A DNA stretch of 64,000 bases from Erythrobacter sp. HL-111 (GTDB lineage Bacteria; Pseudomonadota; Alphaproteobacteria; Sphingomonadales; Sphingomonadaceae), in assembly GCF_900105095.1 (NCBI RefSeq), contig NZ_LT629743.1, positions 2,790,001 to 2,854,000 on the forward strand. The letters are read 5' to 3'. Made by a program: the position numbers and the translations under genes. This document shows positions 53,416 through 64,000 of the stretch, one piece after another; within the stretch, counting starts at the first letter, position 1, and each line of letters opens with the position of its first letter. The notes beneath the pieces are model-generated. The model saw only the letters and a list, made by a program, of their open reading frames with translations. It had not been told where the DNA came from and made no database searches.

Positions 53416-55044
53416 ATGCGTATCCTGTTCGTCCATCCCAATTATCGCTCCGGCGGGGCCGAGATCGCGGGGACCTGGCCGCCCGCCTGGGTCGCCTATC
53501 TCACGGGACCGCTGAAGCGCGCGGGCTTTACCGACATCCACTTCATCGACGCGATGACCGAGGAGGTCGACGACGAGGAATTGCGCGACCGGATGCTCGC
53601 GCTCCAGCCCGACGTGGTGGGCACGACCGCCATCACCCCCTCGATCTACGCCGCCGAGCGCGTGCTGGAGATCGCGGCGCTCAACGTGCCCTCGGCGGTG
53701 CGGGTGCTGGGTGGGGTGCACGCGACCTTCATGTACAAGCAGGTCCTGTCCGAAGCGCCGCATATCGACGTGATCGTGCGCGGCGAGGGCGAGGAGATCG
53801 CGGTCGAACTGTTCAGCGCGATCCAGCGGGGCCGCTGGAAGGAAGAACGCGCCGGGATCAAGGGCCTCGCTTTCCGCGACGGGGACAAGATCGTCGCGAC
53901 ACCCGCCGCCGACACGGTCAAGGACATGAGCACGCTGAAACCCGACTGGGACGTGCTCGACTGGAACCTCTACAAATATCTCCCGCTCGGCACCCGCGTC
54001 GCCATCCCCAACCTCGCGCGCGGCTGCCCCTTCACCTGTTCGTTCTGCTCGCAATGGAAATTCTGGCGCGACTACCGCATCCGCGATCCCAAGGACGTGG
54101 TCGACGAGATCGAGGAACTGCATGAAAGGCACGGCGTCGGCTTCTTCATCCTCGCCGACGAGGAACCGACCATCAACCGCAAGAAATTCATCGAATTCTG
54201 CCAGGAGCTGATCGACCGCGGCCTGCCCGACAAGGTCAAGTGGGGGATCAACACCCGCGTCACCGACATCTACCGCGACCGTGAATTGCTGCCCTTCTAC
54301 CGCAAGGCGGGGCTGGTGCATGTGAGCCTCGGCACCGAGGCGGCGGCGCAGATGAAGCTCGATCGCTTCAACAAGGAAACCAAGGTCGAGGAGAACAAGC
54401 AGGCGATCAAGCTGCTGCGCGATGCCGACATCTTCGTCGAGGCGCAGTTCATCGTCGGCCTGGACAACGAGACGCCCGAAACGCTCGAAGAGACCTACCG
54501 CATGGCGTGGGACTGGCAGCCCGACCTTGCCAACTGGGCGATGTACACGCCCTGGCCCTTCACCCCGCTGTTCGAGGAGATCAAGGACCAGGTCGAGATC
54601 CACGATTTCTCGAAATACAATTTCGTCACGCCCATCATGAAACCCGCCGCGATGGAGCGTGGCGAGCTTTTGAACGGGGTGATGAAGAACTACCGCCGCT
54701 TCTACATGCAGAAGGCGCTGTTCCATTACCCGTGGCGCGGGACCGGCTTCAGGCGGCGCTACCTGCTGGGCTGCCTCTATGCCTTCCTGCGCGCCGGCTT
54801 CAAGCGCACGTTCTACGATCTCGGCAAGGCCGGGTACTGGGGCCCGCAGACGGCGAAGAAGGTCGATTTCCAGTTCGACGAAAGCCGCGCTGCGGCGCAG
54901 GACGCGGCGACCGACTGGCAGACCAATGCCGACCGCGCGGCCCAGGCCAAGGCCCGGCGCGAGGCGGTCCGCAAGCAGATGAAGGAACGCGGGGCGGAGC
55001 GTCGCCGCGATCGGCTCGACGTGGGTGCGGGCGGGGATGCGTGA
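53416..55044 (+). CDS. bchE: Mg-protoporphyrin IX monomethyl ester anaerobic cyclase (BchE-type radical SAM)
   Basis: 542 residues. An N-terminal B12-binding-like domain reads [20 protein letters not shown] and [17 protein letters not shown]. The radical-SAM core has the 4Fe-4S motif [20 protein letters not shown] (CxxxCxxC) and [20 protein letters not shown]. The C-terminal DUF4070-like part has [19 protein letters not shown]. The sequence follows known BchE proteins closely from end to end. It forms ring E of bacteriochlorophyll using water as oxygen source. The next gene is bchJ, overlapping by 8 bp, the order of purple bacterial clusters. A GAGGGGAG ribosome site lies just before the ATG. 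Confidence 0.9.
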
Positions 55045-55702
55045 GGCTGCCGCCGCGCCGCCGGGCGAGGCGGAGATCGGGCCGAACGCCGTGCTCCAGA
55101 CCATGCGCGTCATCGAGACGCGGCTTGGCGCAGGAGCGGGCGCGGCGATCCTCGCCGAGGCCGGGCTCGCGCGGCTGCCGGACGGGACGGGCATGATCCG
55201 CGAGGCCGACGCGATCGCGCTCCACCGCGCCATTGCCCGCCGCTTCCCGCACGAGGCCGAGGCGATCGCCCGGGCTTCGGGCGCCGCCACCGCCGACTAC
55301 ATCATCGCCCACCGCATCCCCGCCCCTGCGAAGGCGCTGCTGCGCCTGCTCCCGGCGGCGCTCGCCGCGCCGCTGCTGATGGCGGCGATCCGGCAGCACG
55401 CCTGGACCTTCGTCGGGGCGGGGCGCTTCACGCCCGCGGGCGGCTGGGCCTTCACCATCGACCGTGCTGCCGCCCGCGACGACCCGGCCCCGCCGCCGAG
55501 CCTCTTCACCTGGTACGGCGCGGTCTTCACCCGCCTGTTCCGAAAACTCGTCAGCGCGCGCGCCGAATGCCGCGTGGTGGCGTGCGAACGCGACGGGCTC
55601 GCCCGCCGCTACCGGATCGGGCGGGCAGGGCGCGCGTTCCCGGCGCCCTTCGCGGTTTCCCGCCGCGGCCGGCCGGACGAAAGCGGGATGACCGCGCCCT
55701 AA
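55037..55702 (+). CDS. bchJ: BchJ-family protein (bacteriochlorophyll 4-vinyl reductase-like)
   Basis: 221 residues from the ATG at 55037, overlapping the end of bchE; a GTG at 55025 is also possible. It has [18 protein letters not shown], then [20 protein letters not shown] and [16 protein letters not shown], matching the BchJ/V4R-type family. BchJ was first assigned as an 8-vinyl reductase but is now thought to help substrate handling for chlorophyllide enzymes. The pair with bchE indicates bacteriochlorophyll synthesis capability or its remnant. Confidence 0.85.
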
Positions 55703-55708
55703 CGGAAA

Positions 55709-55735
55709 TTGTCATCGCCCTGACACGGCTTGTCA
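55709..55735. promoter_or_regulatory. TTGTCA repeats and TGACA-N5-TGTCA dyad before the Slam gene
   Basis: TTGTCA occurs at 55709-55714 and again at 55730-55735, 21 bp apart (two helical turns). The second is also the right arm of TGACA-CGGCT-TGTCA (55721-55735). The same dyad recurs at 61439-61453. It lies about 70-95 bp before the Slam gene start. It resembles a binding site for an OmpR-type response regulator, such as the one encoded at 62522. Confidence 0.5.
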
Positions 55736-55804
55736 GCGGACGGCGCCGCGCGCCCGGTCCATGCCTTCCCCGAGGTTCACGCACGACCGGGGGGCTGGCA
55801 CCAA

Positions 55805-57142
55805 GTGGAACGCAAACTGTCAGGGGGAGCGCGCGCGGCGGCGCTCGGGGCGGCATCCGCCATCGTCATCGCGCTGGCCGGGACGCCCGCGCCTGCCGCG
55901 GCGCGGCAGGCCGATGCCGCAGGCGAGGCCTCCGCCGCGCGCGAGCAGGCCGAGGCCGAATACGCCCGCCTTTCCGCCGAGGTCGCGCAGCGCGCAGGCG
56001 ATCCGGCGTTCGATTACGCGCTCGGCATCGCGGCGCTCGACAGCGGCCGTTACGGCGAGGCGATCATCGCCTTCCAGCGCGTCCTCGCGGTCCAGCCCGC
56101 CAACGCGGCGGCCCGCGCCGAGCTGGCGCGGGCCTTCGCCCTCGCCGGGGACATCGACACCGCGCGCGACGAGTTCGCGACCGTGGTCGACGATCCCTCC
56201 CTTCCCGATCCGGTGCGCCAGCGCTTCACCGGCTTCGTGCGCCAGTTCGACCGGCGCATCGCGGGCGGCGGCTCGGACGTGAGCGGCTTCGTCGACGCGC
56301 GGATCGGGCATGACAGCAACGTCAATTCGGCGACCGCGCAGGACACGATCGTCATCCCGCTGTTCAGCTTCCTCGGACCGGGCCAGCTCGGGGCGGAGGC
56401 GGTCGAGCAGGCCGACGAGTTCGCCGACATCACCGCAGGCGTTTCGGCGGTCGCCGCAATCTCGCGGCAGGACCGGGTGTTCTTCTCGGCGCTCGGCAAC
56501 CTGCGCGAAAACTGGAACCGCGGGTTCGACCAGGCCGCGCTCACCGCGACCGCGGGCCTCGCCCACAGCTTCGCCAACGAGGACGTGCTTTCGCTGTCGG
56601 CGCAGATCCAGGAATTCTGGCTCGACGATGCCAGTTTCCGCACCTCCTACGGGCTGACCGCGCAATACACGAAACCGCTTTCGGACGGCCGCGCGCTGAC
56701 CGCCTCGGCGCAGTGGAACCGACTCGACTTCGCGGGCGATCCGCTGCGCGATGCGGACCGCTATGCGCTGGGCGTCGGCTTGGTCGGCAAGGTCTTTGCG
56801 GCAAGCGTGACCGGCGGCAAGGAGGAGACGCGCCGCGCGGCGGGCGATCACCTGTCCTTTTCCTTCATCGGCGCGAATATCGGGGCCGAACTGCCGGTCG
56901 CGCCGCGCCTCGCCGCGGTCGGCGGGGCGGCGTTCGACATCCGCCGCCACGATGCCGACGACCCGCTCTTCCTGACGAGGCGCGAGGACGAACGGCTCGA
57001 CCTGTCCGCGGGACTGAAGTTCGCGCTGACCCGGCGGCTCTTCCTCCAGCCGACCGCAACCTGGTCGCGCAACTGGAGCAACATGGCGCTGTTCGATTTC
57101 GAGCGCTGGACCGCCTCGGTCGGCGCGCGCTTCGAGTTCTGA
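55805..57142 (+). CDS. Slam-like TPR/beta-barrel outer-membrane protein (surface lipoprotein assembly modifier family)
   Basis: 445 residues from the GTG at 55805. A signal region (AALGAASAIVIALAGTPAPA) leads to a TPR domain of about 100 residues with FDYALGIAALDSGRYGEAII and LARAFALAGDIDTARDEF. From about residue 155 a DUF560-type barrel follows, with FVDARIGHDSNVNS, FSALGNLRENWNRGFDQAAL and the end WTASVGARFEF (C-terminal Phe). Slam proteins translocate TbpB- or fHbp-like proteins to the cell surface (type XI secretion). The gene directly precedes its likely cargo by 25 bp. Confidence 0.8.
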   Translation: MERKLSGGARAAALGAASAIVIALAGTPAPAAARQADAAGEASAAREQAEAEYARLSAEVAQRAGDPAFDYALGIAALDSGRYGEAIIAFQRVLAVQPANAAARAELARAFALAGDIDTARDEFATVVDDPSLPDPVRQRFTGFVRQFDRRIAGGGSDVSGFVDARIGHDSNVNSATAQDTIVIPLFSFLGPGQLGAEAVEQADEFADITAGVSAVAAISRQDRVFFSALGNLRENWNRGFDQAALTATAGLAHSFANEDVLSLSAQIQEFWLDDASFRTSYGLTAQYTKPLSDGRALTASAQWNRLDFAGDPLRDADRYALGVGLVGKVFAASVTGGKEETRRAAGDHLSFSFIGANIGAELPVAPRLAAVGGAAFDIRRHDADDPLFLTRREDERLDLSAGLKFALTRRLFLQPTATWSRNWSNMALFDFERWTASVGARFEF

Positions 57143-57167
57143 TTGCTCAACCGGGGGAGACCACGAG

Positions 57168-60100
57168 ATGACTGCACCTGCGACCACCCGTCCCGCCCGC
57201 CTGCTGCTGCTCGGCGCCTCCGCGCTGGCGCTCGCCGCGCCGCTCTCCGCGAACGAGGTGATCTTCACCACCGCCGAGGCGCCGCCGACGACCGGCGAGC
57301 GCGTCGCCCAGACCGGCGGGCTCACCCAGGTCGCGCTGACCGGCGGGGGGACCGTCTCGATCGTCGATGCAGCCGACTACCGGATCAATCCGGACGGCTC
57401 GATCGACCTCTACGAAGGGTCAATCACGGTCGCAGGCACGGGTATCGCCACGGGATCGGGCGGGCGCGAAATTGTGGTGCGGATGCCCGGCGGGCTCGAG
57501 GGCCGCATCGCGGGCGCGGGTTCGGCCGGCAATTTCTCGGTCGGCGCGAGCGACGGCGAGGAAGGTGGCGAGGCGAGCGGCCACGCGCTCACCGGTGCGG
57601 TGCGGATCGGGCGCGCGGACGATCTCGAACGCTTCGCCGCCGGGCAATCCTGGCGGGCGCGCCGCGACAGGGGGCCTCGCCGCGTGGTCGCGAACGGGCC
57701 GATGGCGAGCCCCGACGCCGCGCCCGCAACGCCCGACGGCCCCGGCCCCGACACCGGCCCCGGCCCAGACACCGGCCCCGGCCGCGTGGTCCCGATCGGC
57801 GGGGATGCCGGCCCGGTCGCCGCCGCGCTCAACGGGATCCCGGTGACCTTCGCCGACCAGCTCGCCGCCGCGGGCGCGTCGAGCGACATCCTCGCCGCGG
57901 CGCGACGGCTGGAGGCGGTGGTCGGCAATCCAGCACTCGACACTTTCCCGAGCGGGGATTTCGCCCTGCTCGTCGCCGCCGCCGCGCGGCTCGAGAACGC
58001 CTATGGCGGCCAACCCTTCGCCGAGGCGCGAGCGGACATTATCCGCACCTACCTGCGTTTCCTCAGCGAAGGCGGAGCGGGGAGCGGTTTCGTCGCGGCC
58101 TACAGCGGCTTCACCCTCGCCTATCTCGACTTCCTGCGCGCGGGCGGCCTGCCGAGCTCCTTCGCCGACGCCCGCCCCGCGGACATCGAGGCGTGGCTCG
58201 CCTATGCCGGGCGCACCGGCGCGCTCGCCGAGCTTGCCGCGCGCGACCGCGTGCTGGCCGAGGCCTATCTCGACTTCCTGCGCGAGGGGGGCAGCCGCGA
58301 CCGCTTCACCGCCTCCTTCACCGAACTGACGGGCGCCTATTTCGCCTTCGTGCGCGGCGGCGGCGATCCGGCGGACTTCACCGGGGCGAGCGAGGCGGTG
58401 CTGGCCGGGACCATCGCCTTCCTTTCGGACAGCGGGCTCGCGGCGCAGCTCGGCGCGGCCGACCGGGCGCTGATCGAGGCCTTCCTCGCCAATGGCGGGC
58501 TCGCCTTCGCGGCGCAGTACGAAGCCGCGCTCGGCGGCTACTTCGCCTTCCTCGCCAGCGGGCGCCTGCCGAGCGATTACGCCGCGCTCGACCAGGCGAC
58601 CTTGCGCAGCTATCTCGAAACCCTCGCCGACACGGGCCTGTTCGAGGCCGTGCTCGGCGAGCGTGCAGGCTTCTTCGCCGACTATCTCGCCTTCCTGCGC
58701 GCGGGCGGCCCGGTCGATGGCTTCGCGGGCCTTCCGGCCAACATCTTCTCCGCCTACGCGGCCGATCTTGCCGCCTTCTACGCCTTTCTCGAAGGCGGCG
58801 GCGTGCCCTCGAGCTATGCCCTGCTCGATCCGGCGACCCTGCGCGAATACGTCGCCGCGCTCGAAGCCGCGGAGGCGAGCGGGCGGTTCCTCGGCGACCT
58901 CGCCGGGTTCTGGCGCGACTACGCCGCGTTCCTCGCGGGCGGTGGCAATCCCGACACCTTCGCGCAGCTTCCGGTCCCGCCCGATTTTTCCGCCTTCGCC
59001 GCGGCGCTCAACGCCTATGCGACCTTCCTCGCGGGCGGGGGGCTGCCGTCCGATTACGACGCGGCGGCGCTCGCCGATCTCGCCGCCTTTCTCGAAGCGG
59101 TTGCATCGGCGGGTCGGCTGGAGGAACTGCTCGGGGCCAATGCCGATCTCCTGTCGGCCTATTTCGCCTTCCTCGAAGGCGGCGGGAGCGTGGACGGCTT
59201 CGCGGGCCTGCCGCTCTACGCCGATTACGTCGCGGCGCTGAACGCCTATTTCGATTTCCTCGCGGGCGGCGGCGTGCCGAGCGACTACACGCTGCTCGAT
59301 GCGGCGACGATCGAGGCCTACCTCGCCGCGCTCGCCGCCCTGCAAGGCGGGTTAGGCGGGATCGGCGATCTCAACGACTTCTTCGTCGAATACTTCGCAT
59401 TCATCTCGGGCGGGGGCGATCCCGACCTGTTCGCGGGGCTTCCGGGGACCGGCGGTGGCGGCGGCACGGGCGGCGATCCGGACGTGCCGACCATGCTCGC
59501 GGGCTACACCGGCGGGTTCGATCCGGCCACGGCGCGGATCGATTTCATCCTCGGCGGAGTGCTAGCCGGCGGGACCTTCGTCGGCAGCGAGCGCGGGTTC
59601 GGGGCCTCATCCTACACGCTCGACCCGAACGGGGGCCTTGCCTCCTACACCCGCCAGCCGGGCGGCCAGGTCCGCAATCGCGGCGCGGCCGTGCAGACCG
59701 ACGTCTTCGGCAATGCCGATGCCGTGATCGGGCGCTGGACCGACGGGACGATCACGATCCCCAACAGCTTCACCTTCGATGCGAACCAGGGCCTGCACTA
59801 CATGCTCGCGCGCCCGGTCGGACCGGATTTCAGGCCTTCGCTGAGCGGGCGCGTGGACTATTACCTGATCGGCGCGACCCGCCCAACCATCGCCGACGGC
59901 ACGCTCGCCCCGGGCGAGTTCGAGGCGGGGCTCGCGCTGCTGTTCGGCAGCGACATGTTCCTCGCGATGGAGGGCAGCATCACGATGCCGGATCCAGCGC
60001 CGGACGGAGCCGACCCCTACGTCTTCGCCTTCGCGACCGAGGGCGGCCTTGCCGACCCGGCGCAGTCCGCGAGCCTGTTCAGCGCCAATGGCGAGGGGGC

Positions 60101-61430
60101 CTTCTCCGGATCGGTCCCGGGCAGCGACAATCGCGGCAACTGCGATGCCAGTCCCGACCTGTGCTTCTTCAATTTCCGGGCCAATTTCGCCGGGAGCGAG
60201 GATACGCTCGGCATGACCTACGAAGCGCGCACCGGCGGCACGGAGACGACCATCGTCGGTGCGGCGATCCTCGAGCGCGGGGCAGAGCGTTCCTTCGATG
60301 GCGGCGGGAGCGGCGGCGATCCCGGGACCGGGCCGGATGCGGGCACCGGGACCGGCAATCCGGTCAGCGCGACCGTGTTCGACGATCACACCTTCGCCAT
60401 CGGTCTTCGCAGCCCTGCGCGCAACCTGTCGACCCTGAACGGGGTGGACCTCGTGGGATACGATACCGACGAGGCCAGGCAGATCATCGCCATTCGCACG
60501 AGCCCTTCGGAAGAAATCGGAACATTCCTCGGCAGCGCGCAGCAGGCCGACACCGGACTGACCGGGTCCGGGCTCTTGCGGTGGACGCGCTGGACGGATG
60601 GAGCGATCGAGGCGCGCGAGACTTCGGGAACGCAGGCGGTCCCGCTCGATGCGAACCAAGGCTACCACATCATCGTCGGCGAAAACATCGCGAGCCTGCC
60701 CCTGCCGACGACCGGCCGGGTGGATTACGACCTTGTCGGAGGCACACGGCCGACGTCGGTCGGCGGCGATTTCGCTCCCGGCGAACTCCTCGACGGCGCA
60801 GCGGCGATCGAATTCGGTTCGGTCAGCCGGATCGGCATCGAACTGGCGTTCCGCTACGCTGGCGAAACCTTCAGCGCAGCGACGCTCGGCGGGGTGGCCA
60901 ACGTGTCCGAGAGCGAGCTGTTCGCAACTGCCAATGCCGCGACCTTCTTCGCCAATTCGGAATTCGGGAGCGTGACCAGCAGCGGCAGCTATTGCGCCGC
61001 GTCATGCCGGATGAGCTGGCAGGGCTTCCTCTCCGGCGAGGCCGCGCGAGAGATGGGACTGTGGTATCTCGTCACGGTGAACGGCGATGCCGATCGCAAC
61101 ATCCTCGGCACCGCGGCCTTCGCCAGCACAGCGCCCGCGCCGACGCCCGCGGCGGCGAGCGGGATCGTGCCGAACGCCGCGGCCCCCGTGACGGGCGCGG
61201 ACTGGAGCCGCTGGGGCGGGAGCGGCGGCGCCTCGCCGCAGGCCGTGGCGGGCCCTGGCGGGGGCGCCGGGTCGGGCGGGGGCACGGGCGCGCTCTCGCT
61301 CCTGCCGCCCGGCGCGGCAAATCCCTCGGACCGGGCGGAGCCCCTCGCAGGGCGCATCGACCCGCGCGCGGCCGAGCGCTGGCTGGGCGGTCTCGTGACC
61401 TTCCCCGCCGCTGCGCCCAAGGCGCGTTGA
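57168..61430 (+). CDS. giant exported protein: FecR-like region, helical repeats and two TbpB-like beta-domains
   Basis: 1420 residues. A signal peptide ends near LAAPLSANE (about 28) and there is no lipobox. Residues 46-165 look FecR-like (GSIDLYEGSITVAGTG, VRMPGGLEGRIAG, RFAAGQSWRA). A Pro/Gly-rich linker (186-206) is followed by helical repeats (about 290-760). Two related beta-rich domains (about 778-1035 and 1066-1320) share a repeated block: DANQG, then GRVDYYLIGATRPT in the first and GRVDYDLVGGTRPT in the second; each has a cysteine pair (NCDASPDLC; YCAASC). The ending of each domain (a strand ending TTIVGAA or RNILGTAAF) resembles the TbpB/Slam-cargo barrel. I infer Slam-dependent surface display. 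Confidence 0.72.
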   Translation: MTAPATTRPARLLLLGASALALAAPLSANEVIFTTAEAPPTTGERVAQTGGLTQVALTGGGTVSIVDAADYRINPDGSIDLYEGSITVAGTGIATGSGGREIVVRMPGGLEGRIAGAGSAGNFSVGASDGEEGGEASGHALTGAVRIGRADDLERFAAGQSWRARRDRGPRRVVANGPMASPDAAPATPDGPGPDTGPGPDTGPGRVVPIGGDAGPVAAALNGIPVTFADQLAAAGASSDILAAARRLEAVVGNPALDTFPSGDFALLVAAAARLENAYGGQPFAEARADIIRTYLRFLSEGGAGSGFVAAYSGFTLAYLDFLRAGGLPSSFADARPADIEAWLAYAGRTGALAELAARDRVLAEAYLDFLREGGSRDRFTASFTELTGAYFAFVRGGGDPADFTGASEAVLAGTIAFLSDSGLAAQLGAADRALIEAFLANGGLAFAAQYEAALGGYFAFLASGRLPSDYAALDQATLRSYLETLADTGLFEAVLGERAGFFADYLAFLRAGGPVDGFAGLPANIFSAYAADLAAFYAFLEGGGVPSSYALLDPATLREYVAALEAAEASGRFLGDLAGFWRDYAAFLAGGGNPDTFAQLPVPPDFSAFAAALNAYATFLAGGGLPSDYDAAALADLAAFLEAVASAGRLEELLGANADLLSAYFAFLEGGGSVDGFAGLPLYADYVAALNAYFDFLAGGGVPSDYTLLDAATIEAYLAALAALQGGLGGIGDLNDFFVEYFAFISGGGDPDLFAGLPGTGGGGGTGGDPDVPTMLAGYTGGFDPATARIDFILGGVLAGGTFVGSERGFGASSYTLDPNGGLASYTRQPGGQVRNRGAAVQTDVFGNADAVIGRWTDGTITIPNSFTFDANQGLHYMLARPVGPDFRPSLSGRVDYYLIGATRPTIADGTLAPGEFEAGLALLFGSDMFLAMEGSITMPDPAPDGADPYVFAFATEGGLADPAQSASLFSANGEGAFSGSVPGSDNRGNCDASPDLCFFNFRANFAGSEDTLGMTYEARTGGTETTIVGAAILERGAERSFDGGGSGGDPGTGPDAGTGTGNPVSATVFDDHTFAIGLRSPARNLSTLNGVDLVGYDTDEARQIIAIRTSPSEEIGTFLGSAQQADTGLTGSGLLRWTRWTDGAIEARETSGTQAVPLDANQGYHIIVGENIASLPLPTTGRVDYDLVGGTRPTSVGGDFAPGELLDGAAAIEFGSVSRIGIELAFRYAGETFSAATLGGVANVSESELFATANAATFFANSEFGSVTSSGSYCAASCRMSWQGFLSGEAAREMGLWYLVTVNGDADRNILGTAAFASTAPAPTPAAASGIVPNAAAPVTGADWSRWGGSGGASPQAVAGPGGGAGSGGGTGALSLLPPGAANPSDRAEPLAGRIDPRAAERWLGGLVTFPAAAPKAR
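58122..59447 (+). repeat. tandem helical protein repeats of about 77-80 residues
   Basis: The unit alternates a long part (for example YFAFLASGRLPSDYAALD, then helices ending LLGE) and a short part (YLAFLRAGGPVDGFAGLP). The long-part motif begins at about residues 319, 391, 458, 537, 617 and 694, giving spacings mostly of 77-80. The DNA period is about 230-240 bp but the copies have diverged. They would form an extended alpha-solenoid or spacer. Confidence 0.8.
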
Positions 61431-61453: not shown

Positions 61454-61536
61454 TGAAGATGGCAGAGCCTGTGTGTGGGCCGGCGCGGGCCGAGGGCGCA
61501 TGATCGGGGCACCTTGAAGACGAAGGGGGAATGACA

Positions 61537-62415
61537 ATGACGACCACTCTTGCGCCCGGCTCCGCCGCCAGGCTTGCCGCGATCCTTGCGGCCTCGGCCG
61601 CCCTTGCCGCCGCTCCCGCCGCGGCCCGAGACGAGGTCGAACTCGTCACCTGCGAGACCAGTCTCGGCACGATCGCCGTCGTCGACGGCGACACCCAGGG
61701 CTGGTCCGAATACGGGCTCGGCTCCCCGCGCGCGCTGGTGAACGCGCTCGCCGTCGAAAGCGGCTGCTTCACCCCGCACAGCCCGGCAAGCGGCGAAGCG
61801 GCAGATTTCCTGATGAACGTCATCGCCGGGACCAGCGAGGAGGTCGACCAGTCGATCGAGGTCGCCAAGGGGGCGGCGATGGAAGGCCTCGTGCGATCGG
61901 GCGCGGCGGGATCGCTGCTCGGCGGCGTACCCGGCGCGGGCGCGGTGCTCGGCATGTTCGGCGGCTTCGGCGGCAAGAAGAAGCGCTACGCCGCGGGGAT
62001 CAAGCTGCTGAGCCCGGCAAGCGGGCAGACCATCGTGACCGGATCGGGCGAGGTGAAGAAGACCTCGATCGACTTCGGCGGCGGGGCACCCTGGGACGCC
62101 GGTGCGAACGCCGCGGGCTATGCCGGCAACAAGAAGGGAAAGATGCTGGTCGAGGCCTTCGTCATCGCCTTCAACCAGGTCGTCGCCCAGCGAGAGACCA
62201 TCGCCTCCGTCCCGGCCGCCGCGGCGGCGCCCGACTACGCCACCGTCGCCGCGGCGACGACGATGCTCGCCGCGCCCGCCGCCGATGCCGAGGCGCTCCG
62301 CAGCCTGAGGGTCGGCACCACGCTCACCCCGACCGGCCGGCGCGAGGGCCTCTTCATCGAGGCCGAGGACAATTTCGGCACGAAGGGCTGGGTCTCGATC
62401 GAGGCCCTCGACTGA
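61537..62415 (+). CDS. exported protein, possibly CsgG-like, with C-terminal SH3-like region
   Basis: 292 residues from the second ATG (61537), which sits at better spacing from GGGGG than the ATG at 61531. A signal peptide ends near AAAPAAARDE. The middle has SPRALVNALAVESGCF, a Gly-rich stretch (GSLLGGVPGAGAVLGMFGGFGG) and then KKGKMLVEAFVIAFNQVVAQ, reminiscent of the CsgG/HfaB secretin-lipoprotein fold but without a lipobox. The last 60 residues (LRVGTTLTPTGRREGLFIEA...) look SH3-like. The function is inferred weakly. It may assist surface assembly with the upstream locus. Confidence 0.55.
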   Translation: MTTTLAPGSAARLAAILAASAALAAAPAAARDEVELVTCETSLGTIAVVDGDTQGWSEYGLGSPRALVNALAVESGCFTPHSPASGEAADFLMNVIAGTSEEVDQSIEVAKGAAMEGLVRSGAAGSLLGGVPGAGAVLGMFGGFGGKKKRYAAGIKLLSPASGQTIVTGSGEVKKTSIDFGGGAPWDAGANAAGYAGNKKGKMLVEAFVIAFNQVVAQRETIASVPAAAAAPDYATVAAATTMLAAPAADAEALRSLRVGTTLTPTGRREGLFIEAEDNFGTKGWVSIEALD

Positions 62416-62521
62416 CGCCCGCACGCCCCGCGGCCGCTTTGCCGCCGCTTGCGCGCCCGGGCGAGTGGTGGCAGCTAGCGGCGAAGGGGCGTGCGCACGC
62501 TGGCACGGGCGGGGGGCGACG

Positions 62522-63232
62522 ATGGATCGAAAGCCTTTGCGGATCCTCCATGTCGAGGACGACGCGCGCAGCGCCGCCGCGGTCGCGGACATCCTCGCCG
62601 CATCGGGCGACGTGCTCGTCTGGGAGGACAAGGGCAGCGCCGCGCTCCTGCGCGCGGGGCTGGAGCCGTTCGACGTGATCATCCTCGACCGGATGCTGGG
62701 CGATATCGACGGGCTCACCATTACCCGGCGCCTGCGGGAAAGCGGCATCGGCACGCCGATCCTGATCCTGTCCGCGCTGGGCCGAACCAGCGACCGCGCC
62801 GACGGGCTCGACACGGGCGCGGACGATTACCTCGCCAAGCCGTTCGAGCCCGAGGAACTGGTCGCCCGCCTGCGCGCCCTCCACCGCCGCGCGGCCGGGC
62901 GCGAACACAGCGCGGTGATCCTCTACGGCGCGTTCGAATGCCACGTGAAGGCCCGCACCGCCTTTCGCGACAACCGGCACGTTCCGCTCAGCCCCAAGGA
63001 ATTCGAGCTGTTCCGCTATTTCATGGAGAACGCGGGCGAGATCGTGACCCGCGAGATGCTCCTGCGCGACGTGTGGAACATGGATTTCGATCCCCAGACC
63101 AACGTCGTCGACGTCAATATCGGGCGGCTGCGGCGCAAGCTCGAGGACGGGTTCGAGGTCCCCGCGCTGGAGACGATCTGGGGCTCGGGCTACCGGCTGC
63201 TCGGCGGGCAGGCACCCGAAAGGCGGCGATGA
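62522..63232 (+). CDS. OmpR/PhoB-type response regulator
   Basis: 236 residues from MDRKPLRILHVEDDARSA. The receiver domain has the acidic pair in VEDD, phosphoacceptor Asp in VIILDRMLGDIDGL and Lys in DYLAKPFEPEELV. The C-terminal winged helix has LSPKEFELFRYFMENAG and NVVDVNIGRLRRKLEDGF. The stop overlaps the kinase start (ATGA). It is a plausible regulator of the neighbouring Slam/giant-protein genes. Confidence 0.93.
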   Translation: MDRKPLRILHVEDDARSAAAVADILAASGDVLVWEDKGSAALLRAGLEPFDVIILDRMLGDIDGLTITRRLRESGIGTPILILSALGRTSDRADGLDTGADDYLAKPFEPEELVARLRALHRRAAGREHSAVILYGAFECHVKARTAFRDNRHVPLSPKEFELFRYFMENAGEIVTREMLLRDVWNMDFDPQTNVVDVNIGRLRRKLEDGFEVPALETIWGSGYRLLGGQAPERRR

Positions 63233-64000
63233 GCGAGGCCCGCCGGTCGATCTTCACCCGCATCGTCGCCGCGGCGATCGCGCTTTCGCTGGTGCTGCTC
63301 GCGCTGCTGTGGTGGTTCACCCACCAGACCGTCGCCGCGACGATCGAGCGCGCGGCCGCGGCCGAGGTCGATGTCGACCTCGCCGGGCTCGTCGACATCC
63401 ACGCGAGCGGGGGCCAGGAGGAACTCGCCGCGCGGATCGCCGACCGCATCGCGCTCACCCCGTCGGAGGGCAGCGCGCCGCATTACCTCCTCGCCGACGA
63501 CGCGGGTCGCCGGATCGCGGGCGATCTCGCGCAGTGGCCCGATCTCGACCCGATGGTCTCGGAAAGCGGCGTGATCGCGATCGGGGCGAATTCGCGCGGC
63601 TATGCGCGGGCGGTGCAGCTCGCCCCGGACCTTCGCCTGGTGGTCGCGCGGACGACCGATCTCAAGGCCCCGGTGCTGTTGGGCATCGCCTTCTCCTTCG
63701 CCGCGGGCGGCGCGGTCTTCGTCGCGCTGGTGGCGCTCGGCGGGCGGTTCGCCGCGCTCGGCCTCGCCCGCCGGATCGAGCGCATCAATCTCGCCTTCCG
63801 CGAGCCCGAGGAGGCCGCGCGCCTGCTGCCCGCCCGGCCCGAAGGCGGGGACGAGATCGACGAGCTGACCGCCCGCAGCGCCGCCGCGCTCGCACGGGTG
63901 GGCGACCTCGTCGAAGCCTACCGCGACACGTCCGAGCAGCTGGCCCACGAGATCAGGAGCCCGCTCGCCCATCTCGACAACCGGCTGGTCCAGGCGCTCG
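63229..64000 (+). CDS. sensor histidine kinase (3' end beyond the window)
   Basis: 257 residues visible. Two membrane helices (IVAAAIALSLVLLALLWWF and VLLGIAFSFAAGGAVFVALV) enclose a periplasmic loop of about 105 residues. A HAMP-like linker follows (RIERINLAFREPEEAARLL), then the H-box start QLAHEIRSPLAHLDNRLVQA with the phosphorylatable His. The ATPase domain is outside the window. It is translationally coupled to the response regulator. Confidence 0.9.
   Translation, partial: MSEARRSIFTRIVAAAIALSLVLLALLWWFTHQTVAATIERAAAAEVDVDLAGLVDIHASGGQEELAARIADRIALTPSEGSAPHYLLADDAGRRIAGDLAQWPDLDPMVSESGVIAIGANSRGYARAVQLAPDLRLVVARTTDLKAPVLLGIAFSFAAGGAVFVALVALGGRFAALGLARRIERINLAFREPEEAARLLPARPEGGDEIDELTARSAAALARVGDLVEAYRDTSEQLAHEIRSPLAHLDNRLVQAL

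Follow-up and report, generated by a model that had tools for sequence, protein, structure and literature searches.

How is a 1420-residue, exported-looking protein handled when its gene lies directly behind one for a Slam-type outer-membrane protein? This arrangement was found in the window, a stretch of 64,000 nucleotides from Erythrobacter sp. HL-111 (contig NZ_LT629743.1, positions 2,790,001 to 2,854,000 of the forward strand; host genome of 3.19 Mb in a single contig). The two genes are read here as a two-gene type 11 secretion (Slam) system with the large protein, called the giant below, as its candidate cargo, and this reading is given a probability of roughly 0.78. Gene order, strict co-inheritance, predicted folds and a separate Slam group were obtained by computation; Sec export, Slam dependence, surface location and a binding role of the giant are what we infer. 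The observation behind the original prediction, made from the sequence alone, was confirmed, and its interpretation is supported.

Layout and predicted folds of the gene pair

The open reading frames of the Slam-like gene and the 1420-residue protein were both present, and the gap between them was 25 bases, as originally described. The features of the pair are as follows.

55730-57142, forward strand: open reading frame of the Slam-type outer-membrane protein (TTG start, 470 amino acids); the GTG start at 55805 gives 445 amino acids
55805..57142, forward strand: divergent Slam-type (type 11 secretion system) protein with a signal-like N-terminus, a tetratricopeptide repeat (TPR) and a presumed C-terminal outer-membrane beta-barrel
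about 56015-56188, forward strand: TPR of the Slam-type protein (TPR_16, 36.8 bits, cut-off 32.7)
57153..57159, forward strand: ribosome-site-like run GGGGGAG between both genes, read from the sequence
57168..61430, forward strand: giant candidate cargo, exported-looking (ATG start, 1420 amino acids)
57168..57251, forward strand: signal-peptide-like start, residues 1-28, judged by eye and not by a prediction program, with no lipobox cysteine
57291..57689, forward strand: FecR-fold domain, residues 42-174, from comparison of the predicted structure with known folds
57690..57845, forward strand: Gly/Pro-rich flexible linker, residues 175-226, with a predicted local distance difference test score (pLDDT) under 50
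58032..59432, forward strand: alpha-helical solenoid, residues 289-755, with AlphaFold2 (AF2) pLDDT mostly over 90
59523..60299, forward strand: handle-barrel unit 1 (TbpB-lobe fold), residues 786-1044, predicted by AF2 and aligned to TbpB in two-lobe rows only
60351..61157, forward strand: handle-barrel unit 2 (TbpB-lobe fold), residues 1062-1330, from AF2 and PDB comparison, covered by single-lobe rows
61158..61427, forward strand: tail, mostly disordered (low pLDDT), with a C-terminal motif of the type GG-hydrophobic-ITF

The two TbpB-like beta-domains of the original prediction correspond to units 1 and 2 and are backed by AF2 and by PDB comparison. The AF2 model of these units had pLDDT values mostly above 80 to 90 and showed the C-terminal handle and 8-stranded barrel of Slam cargoes; the best PDB matches were TbpB, NHBA, HpuA, fHbp and hemophilin. 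This structure check had been set beforehand, and it brought no refutation. In the same bacterial family, TbpB_B_D genes were present in 48 of 199 genomes, lipoproteins and multi-barrel proteins among them (L101-L110).

The giant has no lipobox, as had been stated. Its only cysteines are residues 992, 999, 1276 and 1280, none of them near the N-terminus, so that it would be set free or else be retained by some non-lipid means. Ten of 120 family proteins had an LxGC-like string within the signal-like stretch. Among the canonical TbpB_B_D loci (10 fetched out of the 48 genomes with a match, and the source of the canonical units), a lipobox was present in all six frames with a visible start (five LAAC, one LSSC), the other four frames being cut by the locus end.

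The FecR-like region stood as a fold, supported by the predicted structure, and fared less well by sequence: the Pfam FecR profile matched 3 of 11 members weakly (best E value 0.0042) and did not match the window's own copy, and Cupin_3 did equally well (3 of 11, best 0.0035). The solenoid, confidently predicted with about 20 helices, agrees with the helical region described originally, and the number of about six repeats is plausible; it was not borne out by sequence periods (48, 24 and 157-159 above the 99% level of 100 shuffles, 79-80 slightly under) or by BLAST of the region against itself, which gave the trivial match only. Helical repeats of some relatives matched Pfam DPC2, a diatom pyrenoid component, at 2e-10 in L037 (6782-12061) and below the cut-off; DPC2 is likewise among the precomputed domains of several related database proteins. 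After the last barrel, a motif of the form GG-hydrophobic-I/V/M/L-T/S/R/K-F/W was found in 68 of 119 barrel-bearing family proteins, and 25 of the 119 end within 10 residues of that barrel, of which some may be truncated. A single canonical cargo frame, from L101, could be followed to its end, and it finishes with the barrel. One family protein, P0062, showed no barrel in the domain map, and 3 of 322 units (shorter than 200 residues) were left out of the barrel-unit profile.

The Slam-type protein has the N-terminal TPR of Slam proteins, TPR_16 being over the Pfam cut-off, and ends in RFEF; an aromatic last residue is frequent in outer-membrane barrels. The cut-off of SlipAM (PF04575, DUF560) was exceeded by the same-place proteins of 8 of 10 relatives (G016, G040, G089, G099, G102, G161, G172 and G174; G016 only with neighbouring pieces added) and was not reached by the orthologs G100 and G165. 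At an E value of at most 0.01, 9 of 11 aligned members matched. Several of the next-closest full-length relatives are SlipAM proteins (e.g. in G008, G092 and G150). In a tree of 105 Slam-type proteins, the 68 from cargo-paired searches split from 37 others of the same bacterial family with full support (Shimodaira-Hasegawa-like approximate likelihood ratio 100), and the window protein belongs to this separate Slam clade. The tree was a quick one, built after a quick search that gave 123 sequences from 125 loci, 105 of them different. Branches among the 37 others were long, and the groups were labelled by the search that had fetched them, so that part of the separation is expected. Canonical SlipAM genes were present in 60 of the 199 genomes, the paired group included.

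Distribution of the pair

Eleven of the 199 genomes of the bacterial family carry the giant, the source genome counted in, and all 10 others have the Slam gene directly upstream on the same strand, beside the handle-barrel gene as in the window. A wider set of 397 genomes, the 11 among them, contained 23 with barrel units and 22 with a full close Slam (at least 634 bits); in the 22 shared genomes both were adjacent, on the same strand and within a few kilobases. The exception, G308, has a barrel fragment without Slam; this frame has 291 residues, and the genome, in about 680 contigs, is 78% complete. G131 has a Slam fragment and no giant within the fetched 19 kb, and two weak Slam matches near an E value of 1e-31 were seen in G306 and G242. 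The giant is not widespread without Slam, 22 of the 23 barrel genomes having an adjacent close one, and the co-occurrence check proposed originally likewise did not refute the prediction.

When 84,980 named species genomes were scanned with a Slam profile, 65 named loci were obtained. The scan was built on exact short patterns and therefore recovered close relatives only, and some named loci come from the same genomes as the unnamed set (e.g. L118 and G016), so that the counts are not independent. A FecR-type frame followed directly in all 62 loci with downstream sequence; in the other three (L162, L167 and L171) the sequence ends at most 265 bases past the Slam match. Four further loci end ahead of the barrels (L124, L135, L157 and L159), and all 58 whose sequence reached far enough had barrel units. 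In two of these, L144 and L173, the FecR part and the barrel part occupy adjacent frames, which looks like the result of a frameshift. The hosts were Erythrobacter, Porphyrobacter, Sphingopyxis, Novosphingobium, Sphingomonas, Hephaestia, Qipengyuania, Pacificimonas, Rhizorhabdus and other sphingomonads, a few loci being titled by higher rank only. Together with 109 related database proteins, obtained by scoring the best 7986 candidates only, the conserved gene order excludes chance for the gene pair.

Proposed export of the giant and alternatives

Sec would take the giant to the periplasm by way of its signal-like start. By analogy with Slam biology (PMC12282271), the C-terminal handle-barrel units would be the export signal and would dock on the upstream-encoded Slam-type protein, while the N-terminal part would be the working part. 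The docked units may then pass through or along the outer-membrane barrel of the Slam-type protein, and the FecR-fold domain and solenoid would end up exposed at the cell surface or shed from it. The giant would thus be a long, probably adhesive or ligand-binding protein.

Several results weigh against this reading. The window's Slam-type protein is under the SlipAM cut-off, its TPR_Slam match (23.5 bits) is below the cut-off of 35.2, and a 14-stranded barrel is assumed for it. None of 32 barrel units matched Pfam TbpB_B_D (PF01298), so the giant is not filed under that family, and the profile-profile probability for the units was only 54%. The whole two-unit model fitted TbpB loosely (template modelling score about 0.2, root-mean-square deviation 13 to 19 A), which means that the lobe arrangement differs from TbpB or is poorly predicted, and the single-lobe PDB rows were limited to unit 2. 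Neighbour clustering of 47 loci of at least 20 kb, by clustering only and with no family scan of neighbours, gave nothing widely recurrent besides a histidine kinase, a response regulator and an SH3 protein. Co-inheritance of Slam and giant is also no proof of secretion.

It is unlikely that the giant already falls within the published architecture of 'Sphingomonas surface proteins', in which Pro-Thr repeats are combined with several TbpB barrels. That group (PMC12282271) is likewise from sphingomonads, multi-barrelled and phylogenetically restricted, with 12 soluble members, and alternating Pro runs were seen in 16 of 57 downstream frames of our relatives. The window protein has a solenoid and no Pro-Thr run on its N-terminal side, however, and the published set was found via similarity to known cargo domains, of which these barrels show none at the Pfam level. 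The word FecR does not occur in the main text of PMC12282271 (Grossman 2025), nor in those of PMC8406197 (Grossman 2021) and PMC5449769 (Hooda 2017), and 'sphingo' is likewise absent from the main text of PMC5449769. No paper on a FecR-headed cargo was found among the listed matches of a literature search on Slam, type 11 secretion and TbpB-type cargo. The originally claimed novelty of the architecture therefore stands for the literature searched, and the giant may partly overlap with the proteins of that 2025 paper.

In canonical cargo the N-terminal lipid remains last at the outer membrane. Since the FecR domain sits at the lipid's position, is followed by a flexible linker and was present in all testable named loci, it might replace the lipid anchor: stably folded, it would be retained at the periplasmic face or at the TPR of its own Slam, and the solenoid and barrels would extend through the pore as a tethered fibre on the surface. 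We consider this doubtful; if true, it would be a non-lipid, self-plugging anchor for type 11 cargo, suited to the cargo's own clade of Slam proteins.

Lower still is the likelihood that the giant works in the periplasm or on the peptidoglycan side with barrels of structural use only, the Slam gene serving another substrate. No anchor is seen in the giant and its secretion is a deduction, which would suit a periplasmic protein, but Slam and giant are strictly paired, and the host genome, with a single match each for the two proteins, has no TbpB_B_D match and no related barrel beyond the giant. That the upstream protein is another kind of outer-membrane TPR/barrel protein (e.g. for polysaccharide export, BBP2/EpsL-like), the pair serving polymer export or envelope assembly, is very improbable, because its weak DUF2860, OMP_b-brl, BBP2_2 and EpsL matches, each below cut-off, are set against the SlipAM matches of the orthologs and next-closest relatives and the Slam-cargo fold of its partner.

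Neighbouring genes and comparison with known systems

After the pair, positions 61531-64000 encode an SH3_3-like protein, an OmpR-type response regulator and a histidine kinase. Among the 65 named loci, 46 had a match to the regulator (E value 1e-20, a few distant), 42 to the kinase and 30 to the SH3 protein. The SH3 protein was considered as a third partner and rejected: at E values below 1e-70 it occurred in 17 of the 199 genomes, 7 with and 10 without the pair, and is therefore treated as a neighbour. The kinase (E value at most 1e-40) was present in 27 of the 199, including 7 of the 11 pair genomes, in all of which it is encoded no further than about 10 kb from the pair, the copy in G040 being only 35% identical. 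The two-component pair is the more suggestive partner candidate, but as the kinase occurs in 20 genomes without the pair it is not claimed within the locus. Directly upstream (53416-55702) lie two bacteriochlorophyll synthesis genes, bchE and bchJ, identified by NCBIfam matches above cut-off; the source genome is probably that of a phototroph. A link of these genes to the pair was rejected; they were present in none of the 65 named loci and are not counted within the two-gene locus.

We read the pair as type 11 secretion of a known kind, with a cargo architecture not found in the literature searched. According to PMC12282271, the seven experimentally verified type 11 outer-membrane proteins all fall in one animal-associated cluster, and in PMC8406197, a 2021 network paper, a subcluster largely of environmental Sphingomonadaceae had no characterised member. 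The present locus supplies an exporter and a cargo that are strictly paired in sphingomonads, without membership in that subcluster being implied for this Slam. It opens three questions to experiment: what size of protein a Slam can move, how the cargo is chosen once its barrel sequence has drifted too far for Pfam, and how a cargo without lipid stays on the cell.

FecR anti-sigma regulators require an N-terminal anti-sigma domain and an inner-membrane segment. Unlike FecR and PupR, the giant has neither, and the only about 41 signal-like residues ahead of its FecR domain leave no room for an anti-sigma domain. The soluble Slam cargoes hemophilin, HphA and HrpC are small and have one unit (PMC8406197), whereas the giant has 1420 residues and two units; open frames among the listed TbpB_B_D matches had 232 to 978 residues. 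With the surface lipoproteins TbpB and LbpB the giant shares two tandem handle-barrel lobes, TbpB being the best PDB match, but it has no lipobox, has a FecR domain, linker and solenoid added in front, and has relatives with 1 to 5 barrel units. Compared with Slam1 and Slam2 of Neisseria and HrpB of Xenorhabdus, the window's Slam group stands apart from the 37 same-family proteins and its member is below the SlipAM cut-off, whereas the N-terminal TPR, the presumed C-terminal barrel and the adjoining handle-barrel cargo gene are common to all of them.
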